Assembly (NCBI GenBank): GCA_039707465.1
Contig: CM077645.1
Coordinates: 148,547,503 to 148,611,502 of the forward strand
Length of the DNA: 64,000 bases
Origin: Rhabdophis nuchalis
Lineage: Eukaryota; Chordata; Lepidosauria; Squamata; Natricidae
Direction of reading: 5' to 3'
Shown: in pieces, positions 15,479 through 61,451 of the stretch
Layout: the number at the start of each line of letters is the position of its first letter
How positions within the stretch are numbered: the stretch's first letter is position 1
The notes under the pieces: generated by a model
What the model saw: only the letters and a program-made list of their open reading frames with translations
Told to the model about the DNA's origin: nothing
The model's database searches: none
Program-made: the position numbers and the translations under genes

Positions 15479-17514
15479 TGTTTGTAAAACAATTTTTATT
15501 GGTTTTTACAATATATTTGGGAAGGGGGTAAAATAGGGTATACAATAAACATTTTAATGGCTTCCATGTAGAGGTTGGTGGTCACCTCCGATACTTCGCA
15601 CTAATTCAATATTAGTAAAAAACAAGTGGCAAAAGATACATATATATCACATTTCAAAATGCATAAATTCAATCATTTGGGTTTTTTTTCTGCCATTCCT
15701 TTTCACAGGTTACAGTAATAGTTTCAGAATCAATTCATTTTTGAGATCTGAGTCTCTTTGCTATTGTTTCTTCTTCCTCTTTCCCGCCAGTGGGCGGGGG
15801 CATGGCCCCTCCCGTTCCCTCTTCTTCGTCTCCTAGGAGTAGGGAATGTTTCTTAAGAAAGGCCTCCGCCTCTTCTACTGTTTTAACTCTGATTCTGCCC
15901 CCCTCCCAGAAAACCAAAATTCCTTCAGGCATTAACCAGTTGAACCAAATCCCCTTTTTATACAATTTTTTTGATAAAAAAGAATACTTCCTTCTTATTT
16001 CTCTGATTTTTTGGGGGATTTGTTTCAAAATGGTAATGTCCTTTTCTTGATATTTCAAAGCCCCCCCCCCCGTTGCGCCCTCAGTATCTCATCCCTTGTG
16101 GATCTTCTTAGAAATTTAATATGAACTTCTCTTGGTACATCATTTATTCTAGCATATGCTGAGTTAATTCTATAAACTAGGTCCATATCCCACCAGAGTT
16201 GTTCTTTATTTCTTTTAATATAATCTGATAAAATTGTACTCATTAAATCTTTTAAATCCTCTCCCTCCATTTCCGGCACGTTCTGGAACCTAAGGAAAAA
16301 AGACATTCTTTCAAACACAATTTTTGATATATGCCCATTTATCTCTGTATTTTCCTTCTGTATTTCCCTTATCTCTTCTTTCATCTCAACTGTTCCTTCT
16401 TCTAACACCTCAATTTTTTGCTTATTGTCCGTTGTACTTCTTTGTGTCTCCAACAGTTCTATTCTTAGGTTTAACAAGTCCTTTCGGATTTCCTGCACTT
16501 CTTTCATAATGCTCTGAAGCATTTCATTTGTTGATAAGTCTTGGGCACCTTCCCCAGCTGTTTCTTTCTGTAACATTGTGGTAATTTCCCCCTGTTGTAA
16601 ACTTGGGCTGGATTGGGTGGAGGCTGGAGCTGATAAGGACTTTCCAGATGGTGGTTTTTTGGAAGTCATTGTTATGAATTTAAGTTCTTGTATTAAAAAT
16701 GGTGTCAGAGAAGCAAGCAGTGGTGAAGTCCGAGATATCAGGGGGAAAAAGCCAAATCAAAGTTCACTCCAAAAGTCCAGAAATTAATTTTATTGTCCAG
16801 ACCAAGGGAAAAAAAAAAGATCCACACAATAGGAGAGGCACTGAGGGCTTCTTAGAAGAGGCTTGAAATATAAATTTATTGTCCTGTGATCTTAAATCGC
16901 TGAAGAAATGCTCCGGTGGTCAGGAGAAAGATTTTCAGCCGAGAACAAAGAGAAGCCATTTTCCCAGCCTTACCGCAGTAAGAGAAATAAAAGTAAAAGT
17001 TCCTTTCTGTTGCAAAGGGACCTGGTTACAATGTTGCAACTGTAACTCCGAGAGTAGAAATTTTTTTTCTATTTGCTGTTTAGTTGGATAGGCATTTTAG
17101 TCCTCTTTCTCTCTTTAGGAGAGCATTTTCAATCGCTGCCTTTTACAAGGGGGGGTTAAAAACTCCCCCCTCTATTCTTCTTTTCTTAACGATTGAATGT
17201 AAAAAAAACCCTCACAATTTATATTTGCCAGTCCATTTTGTCAGGAGCCTCGGTGCGATCCTCCGTCCCCGCCATTTCCACCGTCTTCTTAATTTTCCAT
17301 TGTTCGAGCTAGCGTCGGCGAGAGGGCTTTCCTCCCGCTTTCTGCCCTCCAGCTCCTGGGGAAAAGTGGGAAAAATGCCCCGCCGACCGCCATGAGACTG
17401 GGGGCCTCCCGCAGCCGCCCGTATGGCAGGGGGTTAACCCAACCCCCCTGTGCTCCCGAGGGGGCCCACCAGAGAAGCAAGCGTCCGTCGCCTTCGGAAG
17501 CCGGAAGTGATTCC
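15479..17514 (-). mobile_element. ORF1-only L1 (HAL1-like) element, copy 1, full length
   Basis: A 16-bp direct repeat, TATTTATTCAATTTCT, flanks the element exactly (15463-15478 and 17515-17530). On the minus strand it runs from a GC-rich 5' region of about 845 bp, through one L1 ORF1-type coding region (16669 down to 15735), to a 3' UTR of about 255 bp containing CCAATAAAA. There is no ORF2 and no room for one. The length of 2036 bp matches the two other copies. Confidence 0.9.
15735..16669 (-). pseudogene. L1 ORF1p-like protein, frameshifted at a G run
   Basis: An RNA-binding nucleic-acid chaperone of L1 type. The first 204 codons (16669 to 16055) hold a Ser/Pro-rich head, a coiled coil at about residues 45-125 and the RRM-like start ERMSFFLRFQNVPE. 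The C-terminal domain motif REVHIKFLRRSTRDE follows. An 11-base run (C on plus, 16061-16071) then breaks the frame. The remaining 107 codons (16058 to 15735) resume at YQEKDITILKQIP and run to the normal C-terminus. The copy at 60244 has 12 bases at the same place and stays in frame, so this copy lost one base or reads by slippage. Confidence 0.85.
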
Positions 17515-17530
17515 TATTTATTCAATTTCT

Positions 17531-18097
17531 ATATCTGCCCATCTAAATCCGATTGACTCTGACTTTGCTGCTGGCAACCTCCTTTACTAGGATTGTCTGA
17601 AAAAGATTGTGGGAAACCCACATTTAGTATGTATCAGAATTTATTTTCTAGTGTTTGATGAAACCCAAGATCTGATTTGAATGTTGGATTCAAATGCAAC
17701 ATGGTTTGATCCAAACTAATTGGAGATACAATATGATATGGCCCAAGCTTCAAATACAAGGTATAATCTGGCACCTTTAGTGCCTGTTTTATGCTTTGGA
17801 TGACCAGAATCAAAACACCCTTAAATATTTGAACTAGAGAGCTTCAAGAGTTTCATTACAGAATCTCGTATATTTTTTATAAGGGCTTCCTTGCACTTAA
17901 GGCTAGGATAAGAGAGTAATGTGGAAAAGAGCACACGTCAACAACCAAATCATCCAAAGACAGCTTTGAGAGATGTTCTGGTGATGTAATACAGAAAGTA
18001 TTGCACTCCTACTAAAAAGCAGCAATTTTAAACAATAGAAACTTTCTACAATTGATTCTAGAATGTTAGCATCTTCTAGGAATTAGATACTATAGAG
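17531..18097. other. Unassigned sequence
   Basis: No gene or repeat family was recognised between the HAL1-like element and the next MITE. Confidence 0.4.
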
Positions 18098-18231
18098 CAG
18101 GGGTGTCAAACTCAATTGTGTCACATGATATGTCACAATGTATCGTGACATTTTTTGCCTTTGCAGAACTGGGGTGGGTGGGGTCTGCATGTGACACATC
18201 TGGCCCACGGGCCGCCAGTTTGACACCCTTG
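18098..18231. mobile_element. hAT-type MITE, CAGGGGTGTCAAACTC ends
   Basis: The left end CAGGGGTGTCAAACTC and right end CAGTTTGACACCCTTG are inverted. The flanks CTATAGAG and CATAGAGT suggest an imperfect target duplication. It is the same family as 19604-20004 and 58476-58575. Confidence 0.8.
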
Positions 18232-18960
18232 CATAGAGTATATGCTTTTGCAGCACCTAAAGGGGAAAAACTCCTCTAAACGTGTATGTACTATTACTGT
18301 TTCTGTAATGCTCACACAAAGAAATCAAGAACTATTATTTGCACAAGACAGAAATAAGAGGTAATCAAAACAATTTTAATAAGGGATGGGAAGAATTAAA
18401 GGGAACAAAAGTAAAGTTTAAAGAACTGTTGACATGCTGAACATTGAAACCTAGCAAGGATTATGATATAGGTCAGACAAACAAGCGAAGAACCAAGGAA
18501 AGATAAATATAAAAGGGTGTGGATTGTGGATTTGGAGAAAACTAAAGGATCATACGAGAAAAAACAAACAAGATCAAAAGAGAGCAGCATAATAAACCAC
18601 TCTTTTCTATCTCTTTCCCCATTAAGTAAATCTACAAAACTAAGAAAAAATAAAGAAAGCAGTGAAGCCTTCCAGAAGCAGGATTTTCCAAAGTAGTGAA
18701 ACTCACTGACTCACTATTCTGAAATACTGAAAGCCCACTACATTGAAAGCTTTGTTCATATATGGGAGGAGGACTGTGTGAGACTTGACAAATCCAAATT
18801 ACTTTTTGCAGTCTGTCTCTTACATGAGCCTGAGTATATATTTCATTCGAAAAAAATGTTCTGTTATATAGCCATTGCCATAAACTGATTTTTTTAAAAT
18901 AATAAACTTGATTTCCATTAGTGAAAATAGAACAGACTGCTTTTGTAAATCCAATAAGAT
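18232..18960. other. Unassigned A-rich sequence
   Basis: The minus-strand frames at 18396-18590 and 18632-18982 have no recognisable domain or splice context. Confidence 0.4.
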
Positions 18961-18964
18961 AATA

Positions 18965-19170
18965 GCAATTACACAATACCACTTCACAGTGCTTTACAGC
19001 CCTCTCTAATCAGTTTGCAGAGTCAGTATATTGCCCCCAACAATCTGGATCCTCATTTTACCAACCTCAACAGATGGAAGGCTGAGTCAACTTTGAGCCT
19101 GGTGAGATTTGACTGCTGGAATGAGCAGTGAGTTAGCTTGAAGAACTGCATTCTAACCACCACCAAGTTA
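18965..19170 (-). mobile_element. tRNA-derived SINE
   Basis: It carries the body AATGAGGATCCAGATTGTTG and the end GGGCTGTAAAGCACTGTGAA on the minus strand, the same family as 12366, 34292 and 53069. The tRNA-like head is degraded near 19150. Confidence 0.8.
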
Positions 19171-19603
19171 GGAAATTGTTCAAATTGAATTCATAAATGG
19201 ATTATTACATGGACACAACCATGTAGGGTGTTTTGCAGAGACAATTTGCTATTGCTTTCTTTGATTTAGTTAACAATCTGGGTGCTGACCTTCCATTTAA
19301 ACACCAAACCTTAGTTTAGAAGAAGGCCCCAGTGAGGGATTACCTTAACGCGGTTGTGCAGCTTGTTTGATCTGAGAATGATAACAGCTATTATAGAGAC
19401 CTGGACAAGTCTCATCAGAGGAATGTCTCTTCCATAAACAATACAGTAAAGAAACCCATACCAAATCAATCATCACCTGCATCAACAATGTCTGTGCTAT
19501 GTGTTGGACTTCCTGGACATATGGGCTACAGAATTTGGTTTTCCCTTCTTCTAAAACAACAGAGGGATGGCTGTAGTCTGCAGCTATTAAGGTTGATCTA
19601 GGA
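19171..19603. other. Unassigned sequence
   Basis: Nothing recognisable lies between the SINE and the MITE. Confidence 0.4.
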
Positions 19604-20004
19604 CAGGGGTGTCAAACACTGTTTCATTGAGGGCCACATCAGGTGGGCCAGGGTGGGTATGGACAGGGTGGGCATGGACTGCTTGACATCACTCAGGTTA
19701 GGGGCACCTGTGCTGGCCCGAGTGCTCTGTCAGCAAAAACAGGTTCTTGGGCTCTGTTTTCAGCTATGAGGGCCTTCTGCAAACCTCTATCAGCAAAAAT
19801 GGAGCTCAGGAGGGCCACGAGCTCTGTTTTCACTGGCACAGGATTGCAGGAAGCCGTCGCAGCCAAAAATGGAACTCAGGGGCCCGTTTTCGTTGACAGA
19901 GGCACCTTGGGCTGGTCCTTTGCTGTTTTTAGGGCGGCCCCACAGGTGAGATTTAAGCACCCCTAGGCTGGATCTGGGCCCCGGGTCTTCAGTTTGACAC
20001 CCTA
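19604..20004. mobile_element. hAT-type non-autonomous element, 401 bp
   Basis: The left end is CAGGGGTGTCAAACAC and the right end CAGTTTGACACCCTA. The exact 8-bp repeat ATCTAGGA flanks both sides (19596-19603, 20005-20012). The GC-rich interior has a spurious 107-codon frame and no transposase. Confidence 0.9.
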
Positions 20005-20221
20005 ATCTAGGAGAAGAAATGGAGAACCTACAACATCTCTAAGGGTGGCAGCTTACTCATTGCCAGAAAGAGGAAGTCCAAAGTAGTATCTACTCTTTTG
20101 TCTTCTATTCTCAGGCTACTTTCTTAAGGTCATTACTTTAAAGTATATCTTCCTGGTTTTGATTTTAAAATAGGCCAGATAACTTCCTACTGAAGACTCA
20201 TAAAATTCACAGTACAATAAA

Positions 20222-20312
20222 ATATGATGGCCATAAGTCACTTTTTTCAATGCCCTTGTAACTTTGAAAGGTCACTAAAGGAAATTGTTGTAAGTTGAGG
20301 ACTGCCTGTACA
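20222..20312. mobile_element. Tigger-like element, right-end fragment
   Basis: It contains GGCCATAAGTCACTTTTTTC and ends at GTTGTAAGTTGAGGACTGCC, the right terminus of the family seen whole at 35006-35385. Confidence 0.75.
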
Positions 20313-20375
20313 TGTGAATTGGGGCAAAATGTCACAAACAGGAATGAAAGAGACTCTTTAAGTATACATCAAACT

Positions 20376-20779
20376 TATCGTATTTTTTGGAGTATAAAAC
20401 ACACCTTTGCCCCTCAAAATAGGGTGAAAATTTGGGTGTGTCTTATACACTGAATCCCCAAACCCCACCCCTTTGCAAAAATGGCCATGCATAGCCTTTA
20501 GGAGGCTTCCAGAGTGCTCCTGGGGGATGGGGAGGACAAAAATGAGCAAAAAATGGGCCAATGTTTGCTCATTTTTATCCCCCCCCAGCCCCCAGGAGCA
20601 CTCTACAAGTCCCTAATGTCCCTAAAGTCTATTTGACAAAAAAAATGGGGCCGTTTTCATGAAAAATGAACCGTTTTGGGGAGGTCTGCAGAGTGCAAAC
20701 ATTTGTTTTTTAATTCACCTCTTCAAAATCTTGGTGCGTCTTATACTCTGGTGCATCTTATACTCCGAAAAATATGGTA
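20376..20779. mobile_element. Non-autonomous DNA element with GGAGTATAA inverted ends
   Basis: The left end TATCGTATTTTTTGGAGTAT pairs with a right end whose complement is TACCATATTTTTCGGAGTAT. Next to each end is a GTGCGTCTTATAC-type motif. TA at both borders fits a Tc1/mariner-like target, but the superfamily is not certain. No transposase is present. Confidence 0.7.
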
Positions 20780-20784
20780 CATAC

Positions 20785-21345: not shown

Positions 21346-21349
21346 TGGA

Positions 21350-26672: not shown

Positions 26673-26911
26673 CTATGGGCCACCTGGGAGTTTACAATCT
26701 CTGTGCCTTGTTTTGGCCCTAATAGGTTTCCATACAGTAGGCCTCCATGGAACTTTGGAGGCTTATTCTGTTGCTGAGGAAACGACTGTTGGAAAGCAGC
26801 CAGGTGGGAGGAGCTACAGGGAGGTGAAAACCTGATCAGTGGGTACACTTTATGTTTGTGTACCTTACAAATGACACATGTGTGCTAGGCACACAAAAGG
26901 TACGTATGATT

Positions 26912-28911
26912 TTTTTTTTAATTGAAAAAGTTTTATTGGTTTTACATTTTTTAACAGGATAGGGTGATGGTTACAAAGAAATTTTGAGAGCATTCACGTT
27001 AGAGTCGTCGGACCTTCCGAGACCTCAAAATACACAATAAAAAAGTTATCATAGAAAACATTTTCCATACCACTACAAGATGAAAGCAAGTACATTTACC
27101 AAAATTCTCCGTTCCATGCTGTCAGACATTTACAAAAAGTCCAGATAGAAATATTATGCAAAGTTGTTCAAGAAAAATCAAGGCAAAGTTATTTTTTTGA
27201 TCTAAGTCTTTTGGCTATTGTATCTTCTTTCTCTCCTCCCTGGTCCCCCGTGGGCGGGGCCGTGGCCCCCTCCGTCCCCCCTGGATCTTCCCCCAGGACA
27301 GAGGAATGTTTTTTTAAAAAAGGCTTCCGCCTCAGCAAGTGTTTTAATCCTCACTCTTCCTCCTTCCCAGAACACCAGCATCCCTTCAGGCGTCATCCAC
27401 TTGAACCAAATCCCGTGATCAAACAAGGTTTTAGACAAGAAAGAAAATTTCTTTCTTGAATCTCTAATTTTTCTAGGGATCTGCTTCAAGATAGTGACCG
27501 TTTTTCGTTGATAAGTTAAAGGTTTCTCTCTCTGCGCTTTCAGGATTTCCTCTCTGGTTGACCTTCTAACAAATTTCACATGTATCTCTCTAGGCACTTC
27601 ATTTATCCTGGCATATGCTGAATTAATTCTGTAGGCTAGGTCAATGTCCCCCCTGATCTCATCCATAGGTTTTTGTAAATAGTCTGCTAAAATTGTGCTC
27701 ATAAGACCAGGGAGGCATTCACCAGATTCCTCAGAAACATTTTGAAATCTCAAAAAGTATGTCATTCTTTCCATATCCATCCTAGACACATGCCCATATA
27801 TTTCCACAACCTCATTAGTAACATTTTTAATTTCCCCCTTAGCCCCCTCCAACCCCCCTTCCAGTTCTTTATTCTTCTGTGTGTTATCCAGCACTTGTCT
27901 TCTTGTATCCAACAACTCCTTCTTGAAGATAATATTTTCAGCCCTCTGGGCCTTTATTTCTGATATCAAAGTTAGCATAGAGGTTTCAAGAGAAGCCATT
28001 CTTTGTTCCAGATTTACAAGTGCTGCTTCTTGTGCCATGGTTAAAAGTTAGAGTCACTGCCACCAAGATGGCGTTTTCCGGGTGGGGCTGGTGGGGCAAA
28101 CCAGGAGCTCAGTTCAGTTCAGGGCTGTGAAGTTGCAAACAATTCAGAAACCAAAAGAGACACAGTTTCCCAGGTCAGCAAATAGTAATAACGAAGGTAT
28201 TCCAGAGAAGAAGTCACAAATCCATCAAAAGAATTTTTTTTTCAAAAATCCAGAGGGAGTCCTGCTTTCAAAGAGACGCTGGAAATTTCCTTAGTTAAAA
28301 TAGTCAGGCAGGGACAAAGAAAAGCCGCTTCCACCGCCCATCTCAAAGCCAGAGGGAGAGAGTAACAAAATAAGAATTTTTTTTAAAACCAGCCAGACCT
28401 AGAAACAATGTTGCAAAGAATCGCATTCCACTTTCCCTTGTTAAAGACAGTCCGGAGTGAAAGTTTCCACTTTCTCTTTGCAGAGAAGCCATTTTAACGT
28501 GCCGCTTAAATCCGAGGGGTTTTTTTTTAGAAATAAACACCCCCCTCCCAGTCCGTTCAGCCTGGCTGGCAGCAAGGAAAAAAAAGGTGTTCTTTTAAAC
28601 TCACTCCCCCTCGCAGCTGAAGCCTCGGCGATCCGCCCGATCTCTCCGTTCAGCCCTCTCCATTAAAGCAGATGGCACCGACAACCTTTGGAGAAGGAAA
28701 AAAACCCCGCTAGCATGTTCCTCTCCACCTAGGTCGCAGAGAGGAGCGCCCTCCCCACCGCCGTGACGAGGCTGCTCCCTCTGAGCCGACCCTACGGGAA
28801 ACCTCCGGTAACCGGAGAGTTTCGCCCCCGTGGGGGGGCAGAAAAGGCAACAAAGCGGCGAGCGAGCCCTGGGCTCGCCCGTCTCCGCTGGAGCCGGATA
28901 CCGGAAGTCCC
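26912..28911 (-). mobile_element. ORF1-only L1 (HAL1-like) element, copy 2, full length
   Basis: The exact 18-bp repeat CAAAAGGTACGTATGATT lies on each side (26894-26911 and 28912-28929). On the minus strand there is a GC-rich 5' region (28911 to 28039), a single open ORF1 frame (28038 to 27202) and a 290-bp 3' UTR with CCAATAAAA, closing on a 9-base A tract. Length is 2000 bp. ORF2 is absent. Confidence 0.93.
27202..28038 (-). CDS. L1 ORF1p-like RNA-binding protein, uninterrupted frame
   Basis: The product has 278 residues. A coiled coil at about 5-95 (heptads from ALVNLEQRMASLETSM) would trimerise the protein. An RRM-like domain begins at ERMTYFLRFQNVSEESG (about 95). The C-terminal domain includes REIHVKFVRRSTREE and TVTILKQIPRKIRDSRKKFS. 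The Gly/Arg-rich tail ends at QKT. In L1, ORF1p binds the element RNA and acts as a chaperone; here it is the only product, so mobilisation would need ORF2p in trans. The homopolymer that breaks copy 1 is absent. An open frame does not prove activity. Confidence 0.88.
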   Translation of the reverse strand: MAQEAALVNLEQRMASLETSMLTLISEIKAQRAENIIFKKELLDTRRQVLDNTQKNKELEGGLEGAKGEIKNVTNEVVEIYGHVSRMDMERMTYFLRFQNVSEESGECLPGLMSTILADYLQKPMDEIRGDIDLAYRINSAYARINEVPREIHVKFVRRSTREEILKAQREKPLTYQRKTVTILKQIPRKIRDSRKKFSFLSKTLFDHGIWFKWMTPEGMLVFWEGGRVRIKTLAEAEAFFKKTFLCPGGRSRGDGGGHGPAHGGPGRRERRYNSQKT

Positions 28912-29042
28912 CAAAAGGTACGTATGATTGATTCGGAAGTCCTTGTGAACATTGTGTGAAAGTTTGGTGTGGATCCGTCCATTAGTTTCTGAGATTTGCG
29001 GCTTTGCACAAACTATTTTACATTTTTATTTATATAGATTTA

Positions 29043-43141: not shown

Positions 43142-43433
43142 TGTTAGGTCAGACAAAGGATTCCGACTCAGGCATGGTCAAAACAACAGGAACGTTTATT
43201 CACACTATTTACAATGCACACAAGATTCAAGGTTTCTTCTCTGGCAACCTCTTATATAGAGTTACCAGGCAGGAAAACTACTAGCAAGCAATTGCAACAT
43301 TGTAACTCCTTTCCAGACAGATTCCAGTCAGCTCGTCTCAGTCAATTAACGCAGCTGCCGGATCTGTTCCGGAATGCGGTGACTCACAGGTTACCAGACT
43401 TGCTGTCTGGGTCGTAGACCTGAGGACTCAACA
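43142..43433 (-). repeat. Gypsy 3' LTR (292 bp)
   Basis: It starts TGTTAGGTC and ends ACTCAACA on plus. It differs from the other LTR by about three substitutions and a 7-bp deletion (CTGGCAA). The minus strand has a TATATAAG box and an AATAAACG signal. The close match implies recent insertion. Confidence 0.95.
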
Positions 43434-45589
43434 CTCCTTCCCCCATAGTCAGTGCGCATGTGTCCAGGCTCTCTGTCCATCACAGTACATGCGCACGCGT
43501 ATTCGTTCAGATAGGCGGGGCGGTGTCGGGTCCGCCCCGAACGCCTTAGTTCCTGCGGAGAGTTCGGCGCGGGCAGCAGGTCCTGTGGAAGCTCCTCCCT
43601 GCGGGGAGTGGAGCTTTCGCCTATGTCACCGCGGCCTGCCCCCGGAGGTGGAGTCGCCGTAGCTGGAATTGGCGATAATAGTAAGTCCGGGCGAGGGGGC
43701 GTGGCGACCGGGCTTGAGGTAGTTGACGGTTGCTGGCAGGCAGCGTTCTGGTAGGGTGGGCCTCCGATGGGCGAGGCCCACAGCTCAGTATCAGGTCGAG
43801 TGGAATGGTCCTGATGACCTCCCCAGGCGTTGCCTGCCGAGGAGAGGCCTGGACAGGCAAGGGTCTCAGAATTTCCAAACTGCGGCTCGGCTTGAACAGG
43901 GAACAACGGCCCAACGGGGGCCAACGGGCAGGAACGGCCTGGTGTGGTGAAGGCTGTCTCGGGCAGGCGGCGCCTCAGTTGATCCAGGTGGCGCCGCCAC
44001 TCAGATCCATCGTGAAGGCCGACCCTGTAAGAACAGGGGCCGGTTAAGTCCAAAATGGTGGCGGCAATCCATCGCGGCTCCCCTGAGAAGTTCCTTGCCC
44101 AAACTAGGTCCCCAATTTTAAATAAGCGAGGGGCGGAAATCTGCAGGTTTAGGGAAACGGGGGTGCCCTTGTACGTTCCTAGGCTGCCATCGAAGACGTC
44201 ATTGAACTCTCTGATCACTACGTCTACCGGAGAACTGGCTGGCACGCTGTGTACTCCTTGGACTGACAGTCCCAAGGCCGGAAACCAGTCCAATCCGATC
44301 AAGGCAGCTAGGGATTTGGCCACAACCAAGATGGGAAGGGATCCATGGAAGGAGCCGTAATCTACCCTCACTCTGTGCAGTCCTAGAATGGGGATTTGCG
44401 AGCCCTGGTAGTCCTTTAGGATTGTCGCCGTGGGGCTGAGATCTCGCTTCCTGAGCTGGGGGCGCAGCATAATTAATTGTGCCCAGGAAATAAGCGATCT
44501 AGAGGACCCGGAGTCTATTTCCATTTTTACATCCACCCCCTCTAAGCAAACCATTGTTAACAGTCTCATACTCTCTGCCTGGTCGTAGTTTAGAGCTGGG
44601 GGCATCTCCGACAGCGTGAAGCAGTCAGTCGGCTGTGGCTGGTAGCGTCTCGAATGCTTCTGCGACGCTTGTTGTCCTGGTGGAGCGGCTCTGGAGGCAG
44701 CAGCTGAAGTTGTCGTTGGTACGGCAGCACGACACACGGCTGCTAGGTGTCCTTTCCTGCCACATCTGCGGCACACCGATGCCTTGAAGGGGCACTCAGG
44801 TCTCTGGTGGGCACCTCCGCAGCCTATGCAGCTCCGGGACTTCTGCTGGGGCGCGAATGCGCGATTACGCACACGCCCGGTCACCCTCAAGCATTCCTCT
44901 TGGTCTTCCTCCTCCATCTCGTCTAGCGGGGCTATCTCGTCCACTAGACACGCTCGCAGGGTGGGGAAGAGAGGAGGGCGCGCGCGGCCCATGTCAGATG
45001 TGGAAATCTCTGACAATTCCGCCGCACGGGCTTCTTCCACCGCTTGCTCGAGAGTCAGTACAGTTTTTGAGAGCAAGCGGCGCTTTAGGCGGATGTCTTT
45101 TACACCGCATACAAACTGCTCCAGCAGGGATTCCTCCAGGAAGCCTGCGGGGAACTCGCAGGGAATTGCGGTGGCTCTCAATTTCTGAAGGAATTCGGCT
45201 ACTGATTGTTGCGGTTGTTGCACACATTGCCTGAATGCGTAGCGGTGTGCTATGCGGGAAGGTACAGGCGCGTAGTGTGCTCTCAAGCAGCCCAGGAGAT
45301 CGTCCCAGGGCACTTCGTGTACCGCGGCAGGTGCTGCTATGGTTCGGGCGGTAGCGAACAATTCTGGGCCGCCGCACTGGAGGAAAAGGCTCAGCTTCCT
45401 TGCAGGCGCGAGTTCGCCGTAGTCACTTGCTATCAGGAAGTACTCGAAACGGGCTAAGAAGGAAGCCCATTGTTCCTTCATCGGGTCGAACGGCGCAAAC
45501 GGAGGCATTGTCGCCATGGCCATGATGGGGCTGTGAGTTGTTCTGCGCTCGTTGGTTGAGGCTTCGTTCCCCGTTGTGTCTAAAGACAC
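43391..45589 (-). CDS. Gag-protease fused in frame to the integrase C-terminal tail
   Basis: The 732-codon open frame begins with a gag capsid-like region (about 25-200) with WASFLARFEYFLIASDYGEL. Two zinc knuckles follow (C254, C257, H261, C266 and C273, C276, H281, C286). An aspartic protease carries the active-site text EIDSGSS (D359). Sequence just upstream of a reverse transcriptase (EFNDVFDGSLGTYKGTPVSL) ends near residue 485. The frame then passes directly into the integrase C-terminal fold (FKIGDLVWARNFSGEPRW, about 490-540) and a Pro-rich tail ending in the LTR. About 2.5-2.8 kb expected of the family is missing at about 44130, yet the frame is kept. It could supply Gag and protease but cannot reverse-transcribe or integrate alone. 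Confidence 0.9.
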   Translation of the reverse strand: MSLDTTGNEASTNERRTTHSPIMAMATMPPFAPFDPMKEQWASFLARFEYFLIASDYGELAPARKLSLFLQCGGPELFATARTIAAPAAVHEVPWDDLLGCLRAHYAPVPSRIAHRYAFRQCVQQPQQSVAEFLQKLRATAIPCEFPAGFLEESLLEQFVCGVKDIRLKRRLLSKTVLTLEQAVEEARAAELSEISTSDMGRARPPLFPTLRACLVDEIAPLDEMEEEDQEECLRVTGRVRNRAFAPQQKSRSCIGCGGAHQRPECPFKASVCRRCGRKGHLAAVCRAAVPTTTSAAASRAAPPGQQASQKHSRRYQPQPTDCFTLSEMPPALNYDQAESMRLLTMVCLEGVDVKMEIDSGSSRSLISWAQLIMLRPQLRKRDLSPTATILKDYQGSQIPILGLHRVRVDYGSFHGSLPILVVAKSLAALIGLDWFPALGLSVQGVHSVPASSPVDVVIREFNDVFDGSLGTYKGTPVSLNLQISAPRLFKIGDLVWARNFSGEPRWIAATILDLTGPCSYRVGLHDGSEWRRHLDQLRRRLPETAFTTPGRSCPLAPVGPLFPVQAEPQFGNSETLACPGLSSAGNAWGGHQDHSTRPDTELWASPIGGPPYQNAACQQPSTTSSPVATPPRPDLLLSPIPATATPPPGAGRGDIGESSTPRREELPQDLLPAPNSPQELRRSGRTRHRPAYLNEYACACTVMDREPGHMRTDYGGRSVESSGLRPRQQVW

Positions 45590-47480: not shown

Positions 47481-48441
47481 AAATAAAGCTAATGTTGCAG
47501 AAAAATCAGGAGACTCGGAGAACGAGATCGAGATAAGCCTTTTATTTTTGACCAAAGGTCCGAGCAGAAATAAGTTTTGCACCCGGACAAAGATCCATAG
47601 AAAAAGCAGGTTCTTATATATCTTTCAAAGACCAGTTTTGAACCCGGAAACACTTAAACCATTTTTATTGGTTACCTTGAGGGCCAAGCCTTGTAAGGAG
47701 TTGGGGTCCTTACTTCTCCTTTTGTCTTAAGCCATACCTGTCTCTAACTGAACTTTAGCTGAACCTTGTGGTTTTGTAAGAACTGTTGAACTCTGCGGTT
47801 AGGTGAGAAAGTGAGAATTGGACATTAAACATGAAACCTGTTAAGTCCTCAGACTGGCAAAACTACAGAATGTTGATTGGTTCTCTGCCTGTCAGCAGTC
47901 TCTATAAATAGCTGTCAGGTGGCTCCGGCCTTGTTCCTCAGTTCTTGTTAATCTCTGTTAATAAACGTTCTAACTGCAGCCTGTGTTCCAGTTCCCTTTG
48001 TTTTACAAACAAAACAAAACCTACTGGGTCAGGCTAGACAGCCTCTTAAAGCCCCTTTTACTTCTATATTAAAAGGCGACATAGGCCGTTGCTCCTTGCA
48101 AAATAAGGGAAATGTGTGCCTAACCGCAGAGTTCAATAGTTCTTACAAAACCACAAGGTTCAGCTAAAGTTCAGTTAGAGACAGGTATGGCTTAAGACAA
48201 AAGGAGAAATAAAGACCCCAACTCCTTACAAGGCTTGGCCCTCAAGGTAACCAATAGAAATGGTTTAAGTGTTTCCGGGTTCAAAACTGGTCTTTGAAAG
48301 ATATATAAGAACCTGCTTTTTCTATGGATCTTTGTCCGGGTGCAAAACCTATTTCTGCTCGGACATTTGGTCAAAAATAAAAGGCTTATCTCAATCTCAT
48401 TCTCCGAGTCTCCTGATTTTTCTGCAACATTAGCTTTATTT
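47481..48441. repeat. Long inverted repeat: two 323-bp arms around a gypsy-like LTR core
   Basis: The arms at 47481-47803 and 48119-48441 are reverse complements of equal length with roughly 8-9 differences. Each arm carries TATATAAG and AATAAAAGG-type signals pointing away from the centre, as in an LTR. The 315-bp centre includes TGTTAAGTCCTCAG, CTATAAATAGCTGTCAGG and AATAAACGTTC, which resemble the LTRs of the two gypsy elements nearby. No direct repeat flanks the whole. Origin unresolved. Confidence 0.85.
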
Positions 48442-48639
48442 CCACGCTCCATTGTTCATTCAACGTGCCATTATGTGAAAAGAATGCTAAATAAATTTTT
48501 ACTTCTCTGTGGTTATAAAAAGGTTGTGTCGTGTTTAGAATAGATGAACACCCAGATCTTAGGGCATGGAGGAAACTTTCTGTGAGGGAGACAAAGGTAG
48601 AAGCACATTTTTCCACTTTAAGCATATAATGATTGGGGG

Positions 48640-49034
48640 GGACTAGGGATTCGTCCAAGAAGGGCGCGGGGAACTCGCAGAGCATGGCGGAGGCTCGCAA
48701 GGCCTGAAGGAAGTCGGCGATCGACTGGGTGGGCAGTTGGCGGCACTGACGAAAAGCGAAGCTGCGCGAAATTTTGGAAGGCGCCGGGGCGAAATGGGCT
48801 TTCAGGCGGGCCAGCAGAGTGTCCCATGGCATGTCATAAACGGCCACCGGCGCAGTTATGTTCCTCGCCACAGCAAACAAGGTTGGGCCGCCACAGCCTA
48901 AAAAATAGCTTAGTTTTCGCGCGGGGGTGAGATCCCCGAAGTCGCTGGCGATCATGAAGCACTCGAATTGGGCCAGGAAAGACGCCCACGTCTTTCCTGG
49001 CATCGTAGGGCACGAAAGGCGGGAGGGTGCCCAT
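48640..49034 (-). pseudogene. Gypsy Gag N-terminal fragment
   Basis: The start MGTLPPFVPYDARKD (49034) resembles the other element's gag start. A frameshift near 48995 moves the reading to WASFLAQFECFMIASDFGDL, which continues through RSFAFRQCRQLPTQSIADFL to about 48640. It then runs into unrelated sequence. By eye it is roughly 60% identical to the Gag of the neighbouring gypsy element. Confidence 0.85.
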
Positions 49035-49437
49035 GTTGGCGATGTGCGGTCGCGCTGCGAAGTAGTCGAGTGAGGAGGAAAAAAAATTCTGACGAAGGTC
49101 CTTTTCGTTCCCGTAGGGAGAAAAGCCGCGGAGCGATGCGGGAGGAAGTGAATCCGGACCGAGCCCCCAGTCCTCGTCGCCAGTGTTGAGTGGCCAAAAA
49201 GAGGGTCCAGGCTGGTCAGATTCAGCAACAGGTGGTCTTTATTAACACAGAAGTCGAAGATAAACTATGTACAGCAAAGGAAGAAGTTTTCCCTACCTGA
49301 CAGCTATTTATACTCTAGCTGTCAGGCAGGGAACCAATCAGTGCGTTTCCCGCTCCCGGCTTCAGCCAGCCGCGTCTTAGCCAATCAGACGCGACTGGCT
49401 GTTGCCGGGGATTTTAAAGAAATGTCAGTATTCAACA
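48640..49437 (-). mobile_element. Second Ty3/gypsy element, 5' LTR plus gag fragment
   Basis: An LTR (49184-49437, 254 bp) starts TGTTGAGTGG and ends TATTCAACA on plus. Read on minus it has a TATAAATAGC box and is followed by TGGCGACGAGGACTGGG, a tRNA-Ser-like primer site. A gag start follows, and homology stops at about 48640. The 3' part and second LTR are gone. It belongs to the same lineage as the element at 43142 but is a different family. Confidence 0.88.
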
Positions 49438-49816: not shown

Positions 49817-51630
49817 TATAGAATAGAATAGAATAGAATAGAATATTTATTTCTATAACCGCGTCCTCTCCCCGAGGGGACTCGGAGCGGTGCACAGGGA
49901 GAAATTAAAACAACATAAAATATATACGTAGATAAATACAATAAAAAACAAATTAAATTTAACTATCCCTGCACTAAAATTCCCATTTTAAAATTAACAT
50001 TTCCTAACCCCTGAGGTAGAGACTAACCTAGGCCGGCCAAGCAGAAAAAGTGAGTTTTTAATTTCTGACGGAAGGAGCGGAGGTCCGTAGTTGTTCTAAT
50101 GTCGGGGGGAAGGTCGTTCCAGAGGGCTGGGCCTGCCACAGAGAAGGCCCTTCCCCTGGGCGTCGCCCGCTGACAAAGTCTAGTGGACGGCACCCGGAGA
50201 AGTCCCTCTCTGTGGGAGCGAATCGGTCGGGAGGATGTATGGGGCAGAATCCGATCCCGCAGATAGCTAGGTCCCGAGCCATGGAGCGCTTTAAAGATGA
50301 GAACTAGCACCTTGAAGCGCACCCGAAAGACGACAGGTAGCCAGTGCAGCTCGCGCAAGAGCGGTGTTACATGGGTATACCTTGCGGTACCCATTATTGC
50401 TCGCGCAGCTGCATTCTGGACCAGCTGAAGTCTTCGGGTGCACCTCAAGGGGAGCCCCATGTAGAGAGAGTTACAATAGTCCAGTCGGGATGTCACGAGA
50501 GCATGAGTGACTGTGCGAAGGGAGTCCCGATCCAATAGGGGGCGCAACTGGCGAACCAGGTGGACCTGGTAAAACGCCCTCCTGGCCACGGCTGTCACTT
50601 GGTCTTCCATGGACAGCCGGGCATCCAGGAGGACACCCAAGTTGCGCACCCCATCCACTGGGGCAAGATGTTCGCCCCCAATGGCCAGCGATGGAATCAG
50701 CTGGTTGAATAGGGCAGCCGGAAACCACAGCCACTCGGTCTTGGTCGAGTTGAGCCTGAGTCCGTTTCTTCCCATCCAGATCCGTACGGCTTCCAGGCAC
50801 TGGCACATCACCGCTACGGCATCGTTAGGGTGGTTTGGGGTAGATATATACAGCTGAGTATCATCAGCGTAGAGATGGTACTCTACCCCAAAACCATGGA
50901 TGATCTCACCCAGCGGCTTCATATATGTGTTAAACAGGAGAGGCGAGAGGACCGACCCCTGAGGCACCCCACATGTGAGGGGTCTCGGGGTCGACCTCTG
51001 CTCTCCTGTCAACACAAATTGCGATCGGCCAGAGAGGTAGGAGGAGAACCACCGTAAAACGGTGCCTCCCACCCCCAACCCCCCCAGCCGATGCAATAGG
51101 ATACCATGGTCAATGGTATCAAAAGCCGCCGAGAGGTCTAATAGGACCAGGATGGAGGAACAACCCCCATCTCTGGCCCTCCAGAGATCATCGACCAACG
51201 CGACCAATGCCGTCTCGGTGCTATGCCCGGGCCGAAAGCCGGACTGGCGCGGGTCTAGATAATCAACCTCCTCCAGGTGACGGGGAAACTGTTGTGCCGC
51301 CACACTCTCAACAACCTTTGCCAGAAAGGGAAGGTTGGAGACTGGACGATAGTTGGTTAATAGAGCTGGATCCAAAGAGGGCTTCTTAAGGAGGGGCCTC
51401 ACCATAGCCTCTTTTAGGGAAACAGGCAAGGAACCCTCACTTAAGGATGCGTTGACAACCTCTTGGAGCCAGCCTCGTGTCACCTCCCAGGATGCCAGTA
51501 CAAGCCAGGAGGGACACGGGTCCAATAAACATGTGGTGGCTCGCAGTCGCCCACGTAACCTGTCCATATCCTTGCTCGTAATGCTTTTTAAAGACACAAT
51601 AAAACTCAAAATACCACTTCTGCCCAACGA
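49817..51630 (-). mobile_element. L2-type LINE, longest copy, with ATTCT-type tail
   Basis: The element keeps a long open part of ORF2 and its full 3' UTR, ending in a GAATA array (49817-49850). The 5' end is truncated near 51630, so endonuclease and ORF1 are absent. It is by far the best-preserved L2 in the window. Confidence 0.92.
50023..51627 (-). CDS. L2-type LINE reverse transcriptase, 534 codons open
   Basis: The frame covers most of the reverse-transcriptase domain and the C-terminus. Visible motifs are NYRPVSNLPFLAKVVE (92-107), LDLSAAFDTIDH (163-174, with catalytic Asp), CGVPQGSVLSPLLFN (219-233) and the catalytic box YADD (253-256). Then come LHWLPV and the conserved C-terminal LWNDLPPDIR. 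The enzyme copies element RNA at a nicked target. There are no internal stops, but the N-terminal endonuclease is missing, so the protein could not work alone. The first methionine lies inside the domain and is unlikely to be a natural start. Confidence 0.9.
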   Translation of the reverse strand: MGRSGILSFIVSLKSITSKDMDRLRGRLRATTCLLDPCPSWLVLASWEVTRGWLQEVVNASLSEGSLPVSLKEAMVRPLLKKPSLDPALLTNYRPVSNLPFLAKVVESVAAQQFPRHLEEVDYLDPRQSGFRPGHSTETALVALVDDLWRARDGGCSSILVLLDLSAAFDTIDHGILLHRLGGLGVGGTVLRWFSSYLSGRSQFVLTGEQRSTPRPLTCGVPQGSVLSPLLFNTYMKPLGEIIHGFGVEYHLYADDTQLYISTPNHPNDAVAVMCQCLEAVRIWMGRNGLRLNSTKTEWLWFPAALFNQLIPSLAIGGEHLAPVDGVRNLGVLLDARLSMEDQVTAVARRAFYQVHLVRQLRPLLDRDSLRTVTHALVTSRLDYCNSLYMGLPLRCTRRLQLVQNAAARAIMGTARYTHVTPLLRELHWLPVVFRVRFKVLVLIFKALHGSGPSYLRDRILPHTSSRPIRSHREGLLRVPSTRLCQRATPRGRAFSVAGPALWNDLPPDIRTTTDLRSFRQKLKTHFFCLAGLG

Positions 51631-56362: not shown

Positions 56363-56370
56363 TCTTAATG

Positions 56371-57245
56371 TCAACCTATTAGATAAAACCAGCTGAAAAG
56401 CCTTGAAGAGAAGATCATAATTTTAGATCGTTTCCCCCCACTGACTAAATTTTAAACTTATAAAAACAAAAATGAAAGAGGTGCTCTGATAACAATTCAC
56501 CATCATTCAGAATAGCTTGATTGCTTTAGCATGCCAGATTAGACAAGGTTTTGAGTTCTCCGAAATAAACATATTATCTCAGCGTTGTACAGAATCTGTT
56601 TAATATTTGAACATTAAAAATGGAAGCAGTTAATCCATTTCAGTTTTAGATTCTTTTTTTCCAATGATCAGTACTTCTGTAAAGGAATATTGGCTTTCCT
56701 GGTAAAGGAGTAGCTCAGAATAAAATTGAATTTTAAAAGGGTGGAATAAGAGCTATTGATCCCAACCTTTCCAGTTGTAAAATATTAACCATAAACCTTT
56801 ATTTTACACCAGACAGAGCTGCTTGATCGATTAAAAATTAGGACATTTGGCTGCAAACATACGCAAAATGGTTCTGATAGAACTCTTAATTCCACCTTGA
56901 CTGTTCACTGATACCTGTTAAGTTTGAGAAGATTCAGTCACATGTTTAAACAGGAAAAGAATAAAAGATTTTACTTTACTTTCACACGTGTTAAAAAACA
57001 TCAGAGCAAAGAAATTCCCATCCTCAAATGCTGCATCTGTAGATGTTTGTCTACTTGTCCTTAGGCAGTGTCTGTGGAATAGCAATATCAAAGCTTATTC
57101 ATGAGCAACTAGACAGGCACTGGTGAACAGCAAACAACACCATTTCTGTCTGATTTGGAATCTGCTCAGTTGGATAAAGATCTTTATGATTTATGGGTTT
57201 CATGATTAGAAAGGGTTGACTATGGAAAGGAAATCATGTGTAACC
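56371..57245. other. Unassigned AT-rich sequence
   Basis: Nothing recognisable. Confidence 0.4.
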
Positions 57246-57246
57246 T

Positions 57247-57410
57247 TAGAGAGAATGGAATGGAATGGAATGGAATGGAATGGAATGGAATAGAATGGAA
57301 TGGAATGGAATGGAATGGAATGGAATGGGATGGGATGGAATGGAATGGAATGGAACAGGAACAGGAACAGGAACAGGAACAGGAACAGGAACAGGAACAG
57401 GAACAGGATA
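57247..57410. repeat. (GGAAT)n then (ACAGGA)n
   Basis: About 20 pentamer units with a few variants (TAGAAT, GGGAT) are followed by about nine hexamer units. Both read in phase with the CR1 tail. Confidence 0.97.
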
Positions 57411-57640
57411 ACAGGGTTGGAAGGCACCTCTAGTCCAACCCCGTGCTCAGGCAGGAATCCCTATACCCTTTCAGGCAAATTGTTGTCCAATCTCTTCTTA
57501 AATACTTCCAGTGTTGGGGAATTCACAACTTCTGGAGGCAAGTTGTTCCACTGGTTAATAGTTCTAACTGACAGGGACTTTCTTCTTGGTTCTAGGTTGC
57601 TTCTCTTCTTGATTAGTTTCCATCTATCCAGAAGATAAAC
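57247..57640 (-). mobile_element. CR1 LINE 3' end with two stacked microsatellites
   Basis: The 3' UTR and C-terminal coding text lie at 57411-57640, with ACAGGGTTGGAAGGCACCTC and AACTTCTGGAGGCAAGTTG as in 6010-6425. At the 3' tail come an (ACAGGA)n array (57354-57410) and a (GGAAT)n array (57247-57353). Confidence 0.9.
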
Positions 57641-57827
57641 TATAAATGCACTTGGAACAGTTGTTCAGAAGAAAAGAAGTTGCTTCGTTATAACTTTCAT
57701 TTTTTCCCTATTTCTTTCCTAGCACTTTGTTTCACTCACATATTAGTTTTGTCTACTTTCCTTACTTTTCTCTTTCAAAATGTATATTCTTTTTTTTTAA
57801 ATTAGTAAAGGTACATATGAAAATACT

Positions 57828-58008
57828 GGTGGTCCTCAACTTATGACCACAAGTGAGCTCAAAATCTATGTTGCTAAGTGAGAAATTTGTTAAGTGAGCT
57901 TTGTCTCATTTTATGACTTTCCTTGCCACATTTGTTAAGTGAATCATTGCAGTTGCTAAATTAGTAACACAGTCATTAAGTGAATGGTTTCCCTATTGTC
58001 TGTGCTTC
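57828..58008. mobile_element. Tigger-like element, left-end fragment
   Basis: It starts GGTGGTCCTCAACTTATGAC and continues GTTGCTAAGTGAGAAATTTG and GTTAAGTGAATCATTGCAG. The right half is missing. Confidence 0.75.
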
Positions 58009-58475
58009 TCCTCCTCAGTGATAGGTGGTAGGTTTTCTTATCACTATAACTTTCTCAGCCTGAACAATAATCCTTTACTATTAAGAAATTCCATAGCAAA
58101 CACTAAAAGAAAAACACTAATTATTCAACTTTTAAATATCACATTCATTTCAACTAAAGAAAAGCTTTAAATTTTAGATTTAGAATCTAACAGTAACATA
58201 GTAGTACACTAATAGAAATAATTATATAAGATACTGTATATTCAGAATTTGCTTAACAGTTGTACTCAAACATTTCTTTTCATATGTTTCATGTGTCCAA
58301 ATAGCAAGATTAATGTTGCAGTTAACATAGTCATTCTCAGGAGGAAAAAAAAACCACAATCTTATTTTAAACCATATTTCCATATTTTTAGAACCCCCAA
58401 CTTTGTTTTATAAATACTGTCCTATTTCCTAGAAGTATAATTTGTTACTGGTGGCCATCACAGATGGTTCTACAC
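58009..58475. other. Unassigned AT-rich sequence
   Basis: Nothing recognisable. Confidence 0.4.
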
Positions 58476-58575
58476 CAGGGCTGTCAAACTCACATGTTGG
58501 CCATGCCCATGCTCCATTTAGAAAAGGGGGGTAGGAAGTCGCAATACATCACATGACACGAGTTTGACACCCCTG
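58476..58575. mobile_element. 100-bp hAT-type MITE
   Basis: The ends CAGGGCTGTCAAACTC and GAGTTTGACACCCCTG are inverted. The flanks TTCTACAC and TTCTACAT agree at 7 of 8. Same group as 18098 and 19604. Confidence 0.92.
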
Positions 58576-58721
58576 TTCTACATTAATCCTTTTTAAAATA
58601 AAATTAAGACAGCATCTTGAACTTGGCTGTCCCAAAATTTCAGAGGCAGGAGATCCTAGATCTTGTGTCACCTCTATCACAGCAAGTAGCCATTGTGGAA
58701 AACAAGTCTAAAATCCTGAGA

Positions 58722-59240
58722 TTTAACACTGCCTGTGGTCTTTTGGGTGCGCTTCAAGGTGTTGATTACCATCTTTAAAGTGCTCCATGGCACGGGACCT
58801 AATTATTTGCGGGATCGCATTCTGCCTCATACATCCCTGCGGCCAATTCGCTCCCACAGAGAGGGACTTCTCCGGGTGCTGTCCACTAGGCAGTGCCAGC
58901 AGGCGACACCCAGGGGAAGGGCCTTCTCTGTGATGGGGCCGACCCTCTGGAACGACCTACCCGCCGAACTGAGAACAACCACAGACCTCCGCGCCTTCCG
59001 CCAAAAGCTAAAAACTTACTTTTTTCATCTGGCTGGCCTGGCCTAATCTATCCTTCCTGGGTTTGTAATATAAATTTAAATTGTTTTAATAGGGATTGCT
59101 GGGATTAGTATAAAGGGTTTTAAGGTTTTAAGGCTTTAAACTTTTAGCGCAGGTAAATTATTTAATTCTATTTTAAATATTGTATTGTTGTATTTATATA
59201 TGTTTTTAAAGTCCTGTGCTTTTGTGTATGTTTAACAATT
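58722..59240 (+). mobile_element. L2-type LINE 3' end
   Basis: A 103-codon C-terminal frame (58735-59046) has FRQKLKTYFFHLAGLA at its end and LWNDLPAELR before it. The 3' UTR is AT-rich and loses the usual terminal block after about 59215, so this copy may be 3'-damaged. Confidence 0.82.
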
Positions 59241-59388
59241 CAAAGGTTTTTCTTCTGCATACTACCATAGTTCATGTTGCCATGGTCTGCACAACACATA
59301 TTGTTGCCTAAGCCAAAACACAATGCTATGTAAAAAGCAAACTTGACAGGCGGTTGAATTTTACTTCAATATTTGCCAGAGTACGGAT

Positions 59389-61451
59389 GTGTTCGTCTGC
59401 CGTCTGTCTTCTCAGTGGACTCTTTAGGAGCATAGGCGGCCTTGGAGGGGCGTCCTGCCATAGGGTGGCTTGCTGGAAGCCCCCAAACCTGGCGGCAGCC
59501 GATGGGGGTGTTTCCAGCCTCACCCCAGGAGTCGAGAAGCTGTAGGGAGGGCATGTTTGCCTCTTCGCCGAAGGAATCCCAGGAGAAACGAATTAAATAA
59601 GGAAGAGTGGCTGAAATGCTGGCGGTGGGGAGCCCCTCTCAATCTCTTTGACGACTGATAATGGATAAGCAACAGATCGCTGTAAATTTCTGCTCAATCT
59701 ATTCAAACGGAGATTAGAGGGGGGTGTTTCTCTTTTTTTAACCCCCCCCCCTCGGACAAAGCGGCATTTAAGCTACCTCTCTCCGTACTGGAATGGAGAG
59801 AGAACAAAGGCTGACTTGCCATTTGAACTATCTATGTGGAAAAGACTGAATCGCAATTACAGGAGGTGATTGCTGAGCTGATTTTAAAAAGAAATTGTAA
59901 CTTTTACTCTTCTTTCTGCGAAGGGGAGGAGGAAAGATGGCTTCCCTTTGTTCTCGTCTTTGCATTTACAAATGAAGTCTACCTTTTGTACCTACCTTCG
60001 GGAAACTCTTGCTGTCTTCTAATACCTTCCTGGAGGGCTCTCTCTGGATCTCCCCTGCTGCGTGGACTTTCTGGATTTTGATTCTATGGCTTCCCTTTTT
60101 CTGATGTGCCTCTGTGCCTTGGTACATTGAAGGAGAACTAACTTTTTGCTTTTGGACTTTCCTGATACCTCGGACCGACCCAACCACATGCCCTCTGATG
60201 CCATTTTCTTTGCAAAAAGATTTACTAACTTTGAATTTAGACAATGGGTCCTAAGAAACCACCAACGGGCAAATCATTGTCGGCTCCTCCCTCAGCAACT
60301 TCGAGCCCAAGTATGCAGCAATCGAAAATTACTTCATTGTTACAAAAAGAAGCTGCAGGAGAGAGCTCGAAAGAATTATCTGCCAATCAAATGCTTCAGG
60401 AAACCATGAGAGGTCAAAACGAATTAAGGAAAGAGTTGGCGGACTTCAAAGATGAAATCAGAGGAACACAAAAAGACATAACAGAAAATAGACAGAGAAT
60501 TGTGGTGTTGGAGGGAGGGGCAGCTGGGATGGGGGAAGAGGTTAAGGAGATCCGAAAAGGGAATTTAGAACTGGAAAACTTTATGTCTAAAATAGAATTG
60601 GAAAGAATGTCCTTTTTTCTTAGGTTTCAGAACTTACCAGAAACAGAAAATGAAGACCTTAAAGACATTATGAGTACAATTTTAGCAGAATACCTTAAGA
60701 GAGATAAAGAACAATTGTGGTGGGATATGGACCTGGTTAATTCAGCATCTGCTAGAACCCATAATGTTCCAAGAGAGGTACATGTCAAATTTCTCAGGAG
60801 GACCACGAGGGATGAGGTACTGGAGGCCCAAAGGGGGGGGGGGGAACCTTTAAGATATCAAGATAAAGAAATTACCATTCTAAAACAAATTCCGAAAAAA
60901 ATAAGAGAGACGAGGAGGAAATATTCCTTCTTGTCAAAGAAACTATATAACAGAGGAGTTTGGTTTAGATGGTTATTGTCAGAGGGAAAGTTGATTTTCT
61001 GTTAGGGAAGCAGAATTAGGATTAAGACAGTAAATGAGGAAGAGGCCTTTATTAAAAAACATTCTTCCCTTCTAGAAGATAAAGATAGCGGAGGCCGGGG
61101 AAAGGGCAGCAAGACACAAGATATGGGAACGGAGGGGGCTATGCCTCCATCTGGGGACAGGGAGGAGGGAGCAGTATCGAAAAGGCTCAGGTCACAAAAG
61201 TAATTGTATCTGAAATATTATTGTAATTGTCAATATAATAGAAAATGGTAAAGAAAGAAATGATTGAACATACGGTTGATATAAAGGAAGAATTCTGTCT
61301 ATGCTTATCCTTTATATGTTATATTTAAAATTGTAAATCCGTGAGATTTAGGGGGATTTCTACTACCAGCATGGGAGCTACCAAAATTTTCTATGTACCT
61401 ATATACCCTTTTCCCATAAATGTTTTAAAACCAATAAAACTTTTACAAACA
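59389..61451 (+). mobile_element. ORF1-only L1 (HAL1-like) element, copy 3, full length
   Basis: A 21-bp direct repeat with two mismatches flanks it (59368-59388 and 61452-61472). A 5' region of about 855 bp leads to ORF1 at 60244, whose natural end is the stop at 61201. A 3' UTR of 248 bp with ACCAATAAAACTTTTAC follows. ORF2 is absent. Length is 2063 bp. The 3' target repeat was later hit by the MITE at 61473. Confidence 0.93.
60244..61203 (+). pseudogene. L1 ORF1p-like protein, broken near the C-terminus
   Basis: It starts MGPKKPPTGKSLSAPPSATS, close to the start of copy 1. The coiled coil covers about 50-120, the RRM-like domain starts at ERMSFFLRFQNLPETE, and the C-terminal domain has REVHVKFLRRTTRDE. 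A run of 12 G (60833-60844) encodes Gly residues in frame. At 61003 the frame ends early in FC-stop, where the other copies read FWEGG. Beyond it, recognisable coding text continues to SKRLRSQK and the stop at 61201. Confidence 0.87.

Follow-up and report, generated by a model that had tools for sequence, protein, structure and literature searches.

Analysis of a 64,000-nucleotide stretch of the Rhabdophis nuchalis genome (contig CM077645.1; hereafter the window) identified three elements of about 2 kb, termed copies 1, 2 and 3 (E1, E2 and E3), each of which carries one open reading frame (ORF) of the LINE-1 (L1) ORF1 type and no ORF2. These elements very probably represent a non-autonomous long interspersed nuclear element (LINE) family of the HAL1 (half-L1) type in a squamate genome, which would be mobilized in trans, and the original prediction of a reptile HAL1-like family was supported in that the ORF1-only layout was found again, for each of the three subfamilies, in the copies that match best. 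With less assurance, we lean towards the view that this ORF1-only lineage has persisted since before its subfamilies split, with ORF1 kept under purifying selection in the absence of ORF2, and that it was jumping until very recently; the cis preference of its ORF1 protein (ORF1p) would then suffice for a parasite of L1 ORF2p to survive through long evolutionary times.

Layout and ORF1p identity of the window elements

The features of the three elements are given below in window coordinates, with target-site duplications (TSDs) listed without strand and 3' untranslated regions abbreviated as 3' UTR.

15479-17514, minus strand: copy 1 (E1), ORF1-only element of 2036 bp
15463-15478: copy 1 TSD, one arm, 16 bp exact
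17515-17530: copy 1 TSD, other arm, 16 bp exact
16670-17514, minus strand: copy 1 5' region, 845 nt, G+C-rich at its start, with CACTTCCGG
16055-16669, minus strand: copy 1 ORF1 portion ahead of the frameshift, 204 aa
15735-16088, minus strand: copy 1 stop-to-stop frame with the remaining ORF1 past the frameshift, ending at the stop that follows IAKRLRSQK
15479-15734, minus strand: copy 1 3' UTR, 256 nt, with AATAAA and no visible poly(A)
26912-28911, minus strand: copy 2 (E2), ORF1-only element of 2000 bp, youngest subfamily
26894-26911: copy 2 TSD, one arm, 18 bp exact
28912-28929: copy 2 TSD, other arm, 18 bp exact
27202-28038, minus strand: copy 2 ORF1, 278 aa, with a C-terminal-side frameshift (282 aa in three fetched sisters)
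26912-27188, minus strand: copy 2 3' UTR, 277 nt, whose final ~15 nt ahead of the A-run equal the 3' terminus of an own-genome L1
59389-61451, plus strand: copy 3 (E3), ORF1-only element of 2063 bp, 5' end ~31 nt short
59368-59388: copy 3 TSD, one arm, 21 bp with 2 mismatches
61452-61472: copy 3 TSD, other arm, 21 bp with 2 mismatches
60244-61005, plus strand: copy 3 ORF1 as far as an in-frame stop, 253 aa; the same frame continues as ORF1 to ~61179
61204-61451, plus strand: copy 3 3' UTR, 248 nt, with AATAAA and no visible poly(A); ORF1 end set by homology

The lengths, coordinates and TSDs were as claimed in the original prediction. The longest exact match obtained by chance among 2000 random pairs of 40-bp stretches at TSD-matched spacing was 10, and chance TSDs were ruled out by these controls; each element is a retro-insertion. 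The TSD starts (TTC/AATATT in copy 3, ATC/AATCAT in copy 2, TAT/AGAAAT in copy 1 and ATT/AAGAAC at locus L078) fit loosely with what we take to be the target motif of the L1 endonuclease.

All three elements follow one plan of ~2.0 kb, consisting of a ~850-nt 5' region (845, 873 and 855 nt in copies 1, 2 and 3, respectively) that is G+C- and CpG-rich at its start, an ORF1 of ~280-310 codons and a 3' UTR of ~250-280 nt with AATAAA, followed by an A-run in many copies. Because the single ORF1 frame is followed by 3' UTRs of only 256, 277 and 248 nt, there is no room for ORF2 in any of the three, as had been claimed from the sequence. The description of the copies as full length with one ORF1 frame each stood with respect to layout but not to integrity: ORF1 is damaged in all three and intact in none (one frameshift in copy 1; a frameshift near the C terminus of copy 2, not present in three fetched sister copies; an in-frame stop and small deletions in copy 3), and copy 3 is without ~31 nt of the 5' end found in its sister copies. 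Copies 1 and 3 terminate in ...TTTTACAAACA with no visible poly(A), and copy 2 terminates in A8. Pairwise DNA identity of ORF1 between the window copies is 66-73% (blastn blocks).

The identity of ORF1 as L1 ORF1p, also part of the original prediction, was borne out by profile, fold and relatives, Pfam matches of the single ORFs being below cut-off or lacking. Against Transposase_22 (cut-off 22.4 bits), copies 1 and 2 scored 13.1 and 13.8 bits and copy 3 was unlisted; the single ORFs of the window and of the closest copies gave only sub-cut-off Pfam matches or unrelated coiled coils, and four of nine further relatives (P0018, P0019, P0020 and P0022) passed the cut-off. When a profile of 15 relatives was searched against the PDB, the solved human L1 ORF1p was recovered at E = 4.6e-14, with coiled-coil proteins ranking below the L1 entries, and a 6-row profile of the window clade plus P0003 recovered it at E = 0.0011. 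The AlphaFold model of copy-2 ORF1 (mean pLDDT 82.5, pTM 0.52) consists of a long helix, an RRM-like domain and a C-terminal domain, and all 12 PDB chains found by Foldseek at E <= 0.001 were human L1 ORF1p, with modest TM-scores (0.27-0.44 by query). The named ORF1p relatives found are from squamates (Sceloporus, Ophiophagus, Ahaetulla, Erythrolamprus, Micrurus and Naja). No match was obtained in Rfam at gathering scores or in a viral-contig scan.

Copies elsewhere in the genome

The 1.918-Gb genome of the same animal was searched with each element, and the best 40 places per query, window copy included, were scored (out of 9827 candidates for copy 1, 7804 for copy 2 and 5560 for copy 3). Selected as the closest matches to a query without ORF2, these places do not amount to a census, and the first-look candidates do not equal copy numbers. 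The junction between ORF1 and the 3' UTR, as read off the match tables, was crossed in 114 of the 120 scored places (38/40 for copy 1, 40/40 for copy 2 and 36/40 for copy 3). No ORF2-sized gap was present at the junction in these 114 places, where extra sequence amounts to at most a few hundred bases; the other six (two for copy 1 and four for copy 3) end before the junction and are uninformative on ORF2. It had been said beforehand that the family would fall if most copies with these ends also carried ORF2; this was not found among the best-scoring places, and the common junction bears out the earlier argument against random deletion.

For copy 2, all 40 scored places form one ~2.0-kb block at 98-100% identity (self included), starting at query positions 1-3 in 38 and at 17 and 21 in two, and ending at 1995-2000 in every case. 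For copy 1, 26 of 40 are collinear in one block (query 1-25 to >=1996; 80-100% identity, self included), and for copy 3, 16 of 40 are near-complete in one block (query 1-57 to >=2046; 84-100% identity, self included). The remaining copy 1 and copy 3 places are truncated, internally deleted or broken by inserts of up to several hundred bases. The largest junction insert, 215-222 bp, occurs in two C13 copies of the copy-1 family. It was considered as an ORF2 remnant and rejected, the extra piece being a nested antisense insertion with an L1 3' end; since both copies carry it, they are probably one duplicated locus. At two places on C2 (193552608-193555251 and 193741237-193743881), a copy-2 element adjoins a second family piece (query 1-598, 90% identity), and the identical arrangement at both suggests that this is probably a segmental duplication.

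Forty copies were fetched for closer inspection, 20 of the 39 other places for each of the copy 1 and copy 3 families. A TSD score of at least 10 was reached in 27 of them (15/20 in the E1 family and 12/20 in the E3 family), compared with 31 of 2000 random pairs. L052, counted among the 27, is doubtful, its match being long and imperfect. Many of the fetched copies have a common 5' start. ORF1 is complete from start to stop in three (L035, L048 and L059) of 50 loci (L013-L062) that are mostly E1 and E3 copies.

The copy-2 subfamily is very young, with an intact ORF1 in its fetched copies. Three of its 39 other scored places were fetched, and substitutions amount to only 0.25-0.45% in comparisons among them and with the window copy; each carries an undamaged ORF1 of 282 aa, an A-run of at least 10 and TSD-like repeats, which in L077 consist of a simple ATT repeat. 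With one branch nearly identical among its copies, the element looks recently active. A 27-mer close to the end of copy-2 ORF1 occurs exactly 1,927 times in the genome, and its reversed-pattern control does not occur. Short A-runs were also seen in several E3 and E1 copies and none in window copies 1 and 3; tail-less 3' ends were therefore dropped as a rule of the family, since sister copies carry A-runs.

Selection, relationships and origin of the family

For analysis of selection, variable columns were counted in the E1 and E3 families (the window copy plus 20 fetched copies each), leaving out CpG columns and columns in which the commonest minor letter occurred twice. Changes common to at least three copies fell on codon positions 1/2/3 in the numbers 14/8/41 (E3) and 22/13/52 (E1), compared with 70/64/68 (E3) and 69/52/85 (E1) for private changes, a contrast with rough p values of 1.9e-5 for E3 and 0.0056 for E1. 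As common changes would stem mostly from source elements and private ones from the time after insertion, this pattern indicates that ORF1 has been under purifying selection in the source elements. A dN/dS-type check on ORF1, proposed with the original prediction, gave a pN/pS (nonsynonymous over synonymous differences) of 0.28-0.42 between subfamilies, consistent with constraint in the sources; synonymous sites are saturated in two of three subfamily pairs, with dS 1.86 in the third.

The 5' regions are homologous in all three pairs of window copies (z 7-14), as are the 3' UTRs (z 5-10). For copies 1 and 3, the sequence after the ORF1 stop aligns overall at z 10.3 (first 100 nt, z 4.7; last 80 nt, z 7.5; middle alone, z 1.0), but the start of the copy 2 3' UTR could not be aligned with either (z ~1), so that the evidence for a common junction is good for copies 1 and 3, and for copy 2 such a junction is no more than likely. 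In an ORF1p tree of 24 rows, midpoint-rooted and with P0013 left out for its long branch, E1, E2 and E3 group with P0001 and two fetched copies (support 99/98), and P0015 and P0003 join this group at 100/100. Taken together, UTR homology and the ORF1p clade suggest a single ORF1-only ancestor that would predate the subfamily split. The claim of more than one subfamily held, within what is still one ORF1p clade.

The genome also contains L1 copies that have ORF2. A nested insertion in two E1-family copies led to an L1 (L072 + L069; IRLRG-type ORF1) whose frames are broken by frameshifts, and a protein search with P0018 returned many stop-free ORF1 matches (best 115 of 35,887 candidates), including L074 (FLRFQN) and L075 (FLRMQN), in which interrupted frames follow ORF1. 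In all of these L1s, the frames were named by eye, and we take them to be endonuclease, reverse transcriptase (RT) and cysteine-motif frames. ORF1 of L074 and L075 is nearest to snake relatives of the window clade (tblastn), but it differs in its longer stop-free frames (374 and 390 aa versus 282 to ~310), and the UTRs are unlike and not alignable with those of copies 1 and 3; the comparison of copy 2 with the L074 3' UTR lay barely beyond 100 shuffles (33 versus at most 32). ORF1 of the L072 + L069 element is 28-30% identical to copies 1 and 2 and has no match to copy 3 at E 0.01. Across the L1s examined, ORF1 is 28-46% identical to E1-E3 (the range for L074 and L075 as well) and the UTRs are mostly unrelated, so the ORF1-only family is no fresh deletion of any of them.

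Alignment of the 3' UTRs with L1s, also suggested at the outset, gave a divided result: copy 2 shares a ~15-nt terminus with the L072 + L069 element, but the 3' UTRs are otherwise not copies of those of the L1s examined. Copy 2 ends in the L1 terminus AAAACTTTTTCAATT(A)n (score reached by 1 of 5000 shuffles), to which the end of copy 3 bears a weak resemblance (126/5000) and that of copy 1 none (1261/5000). This common terminus may reflect exchange, capture or selection on a terminal signal. With the A-run included, this match covers the last ~25 nt of copy 2 (window positions 26912-26934, compared with L053:2371-2591), and the remaining 3' UTR is unrelated.

Several side observations concern these L1s. 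Many stop-free ORF1 matches lie in frames of ~330-410 aa, and several L1 lineages seem to have been active recently side by side in this genome. One match (C1:220686126-220687127), with one TAA inside it, is listed with an open frame of 1483 aa, a length well beyond that of the rest. Locus L063:4260-6577 (C8) has an IRLRG-type ORF1 (370-aa frame), then 1.2 kb with an apparent RT scrap and then an L1 3' end; it is an internally deleted L1 and perhaps a second ORF1-only design.

The main rival to a single ancestor is a separate HAL1-type origin from a different L1 lineage for each subfamily, which we regard as unlikely overall and which applies above all to copy 2. Synonymous sites between subfamilies are saturated or nearly so, the start of the copy 2 3' UTR does not align with the others, and HAL1s arose several times in mammals according to the available portion of PMC5753468; on the other side stand the alignment of copies 1 and 3 from ORF1 stop to 3' end, weak in its middle alone, the homology of the 5' regions in all pairs and the grouping of the window elements in one ORF1p clade. 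That ordinary full-length L1s gave rise to the elements independently, through internal deletion, splicing or template switching, is considerably less probable. L1 deletion does happen in this genome, as L063 illustrates, but a single junction recurs throughout the 114 crossing places, most fetched copies have separate TSDs, the copy-2 relatives are near-identical and no ORF2-bearing progenitor was found among the scored places. Slightly less credence still is given to retrocopies of a domesticated, L1 ORF1-derived host gene, like L1TD1 in mammals. Such a gene would fit a single ORF under purifying selection and an mRNA-like build with AATAAA and A-run, and it fits poorly with three diverged multi-copy subfamilies, a common 5' start in many copies and 1,927 exact 27-mers.

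A number of points weigh against a HAL1-type family. The scored places were chosen by similarity to a query that lacks ORF2, and near-identical copies fill the copy-2 list, so that a less common counterpart with ORF2 in that subfamily could escape detection; the 27-mer count is silent on what lies downstream of ORF1. TSDs were below threshold in 13 of the 40 fetched copies, and window copies 1 and 3 are without visible poly(A). The E1 contrast in codon positions is modest, its singletons are not flat (85 at position 3), and the p values are rough because columns are not independent on the tree. A dynein coiled coil was a close second (E = 0.0045) in the window-clade profile search. Among the L1s examined, none had a closely related ORF1 or these UTRs, their ORF2 frames are interrupted, and copy 2 alone has a clear match to an L1 at its 3' terminus.

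In the HAL1-type reading, the element probably borrows the copying enzyme of complete L1s. Its mRNA would be translated into ORF1p, which would act in cis by coating the RNA it was made from, and an L1 would provide ORF2p in trans to nick an A-rich target and reverse transcribe the element RNA; ORF1 would be retained because copies that lose it spread less. The contrast between common and private substitutions indicates that ORF1 is important to its own element, and from this one would predict that ORF1p has a cis preference distinct from the one shown by ORF2p.

Comparison with known elements and other window features

Mammalian HAL1s are likewise ORF1-only, L1-derived and TSD-flanked, and are thought to depend on the RT and endonuclease of full-length LINEs, as described in the available portions of PMC5322556 and PMC5753468; the former counts nearly 2,100 copies of HAL1 in human. 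The present family differs in its squamate host, in an ORF1p that falls within a squamate L1 clade, in having one subfamily only 0.25-0.45% diverged with intact ORF1, and in the lack of visible poly(A) in copies 1 and 3, a comparison made by published description rather than by sequence. Against descent from mammalian HAL1, the named relatives are squamate and human L1 ORF1p is a remote profile match only, mammalian HAL1 not being among the sequences compared. On our best reading, HAL1, known from mammals, has in this squamate family a counterpart of the same type outside mammals that is long-lived and recently active. No report of a reptile HAL1 was found in the literature searched, with most subscription papers, Repbase and Dfam outside the search; neither ORF1 nor HAL1 occurs as a term in the main text of PMC6050309, and the available portion of PMC7140322 mentions a lizard L1 clade and not half-L1. 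The anole was the only non-mammal with tailless retropseudogenes among the vertebrates screened in PMC5322556, which fits a relaxed L1 in squamates.

Among other comparators, the snake ORF1p-like proteins (Ahaetulla prasina P0015, Naja, Micrurus and Erythrolamprus) belong to the same ORF1p clade and are known from protein records alone, and the L072 + L069 element shares the 3' terminus of copy 2 and differs in ORF1 and in an otherwise unrelated 3' UTR. Autonomous L1s have an ORF2 with endonuclease and RT, which was found neither in the window elements nor in the junction-crossing scored places; ORF1 counts are thus no proxy for counts of autonomous L1s in squamate genomes. With a young subfamily whose fetched copies have intact ORF1 and at least 1,927 ORF1 ends, the family offers a living system for asking why a non-autonomous LINE keeps ORF1.

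The window also holds other elements. On the plus strand, 9319-10303 is a LINE fragment that is by eye not L1-like, with a match to RVT_1 at 9319-9651. On the minus strand, 43391-45589 and 48386-49228 contain Gag-like frames, by eye of a Gypsy-type long terminal repeat element, and 50023-51627 is a long RT frame (RVT_1, E = 8.8e-35) that is by eye L2/CR1-like.

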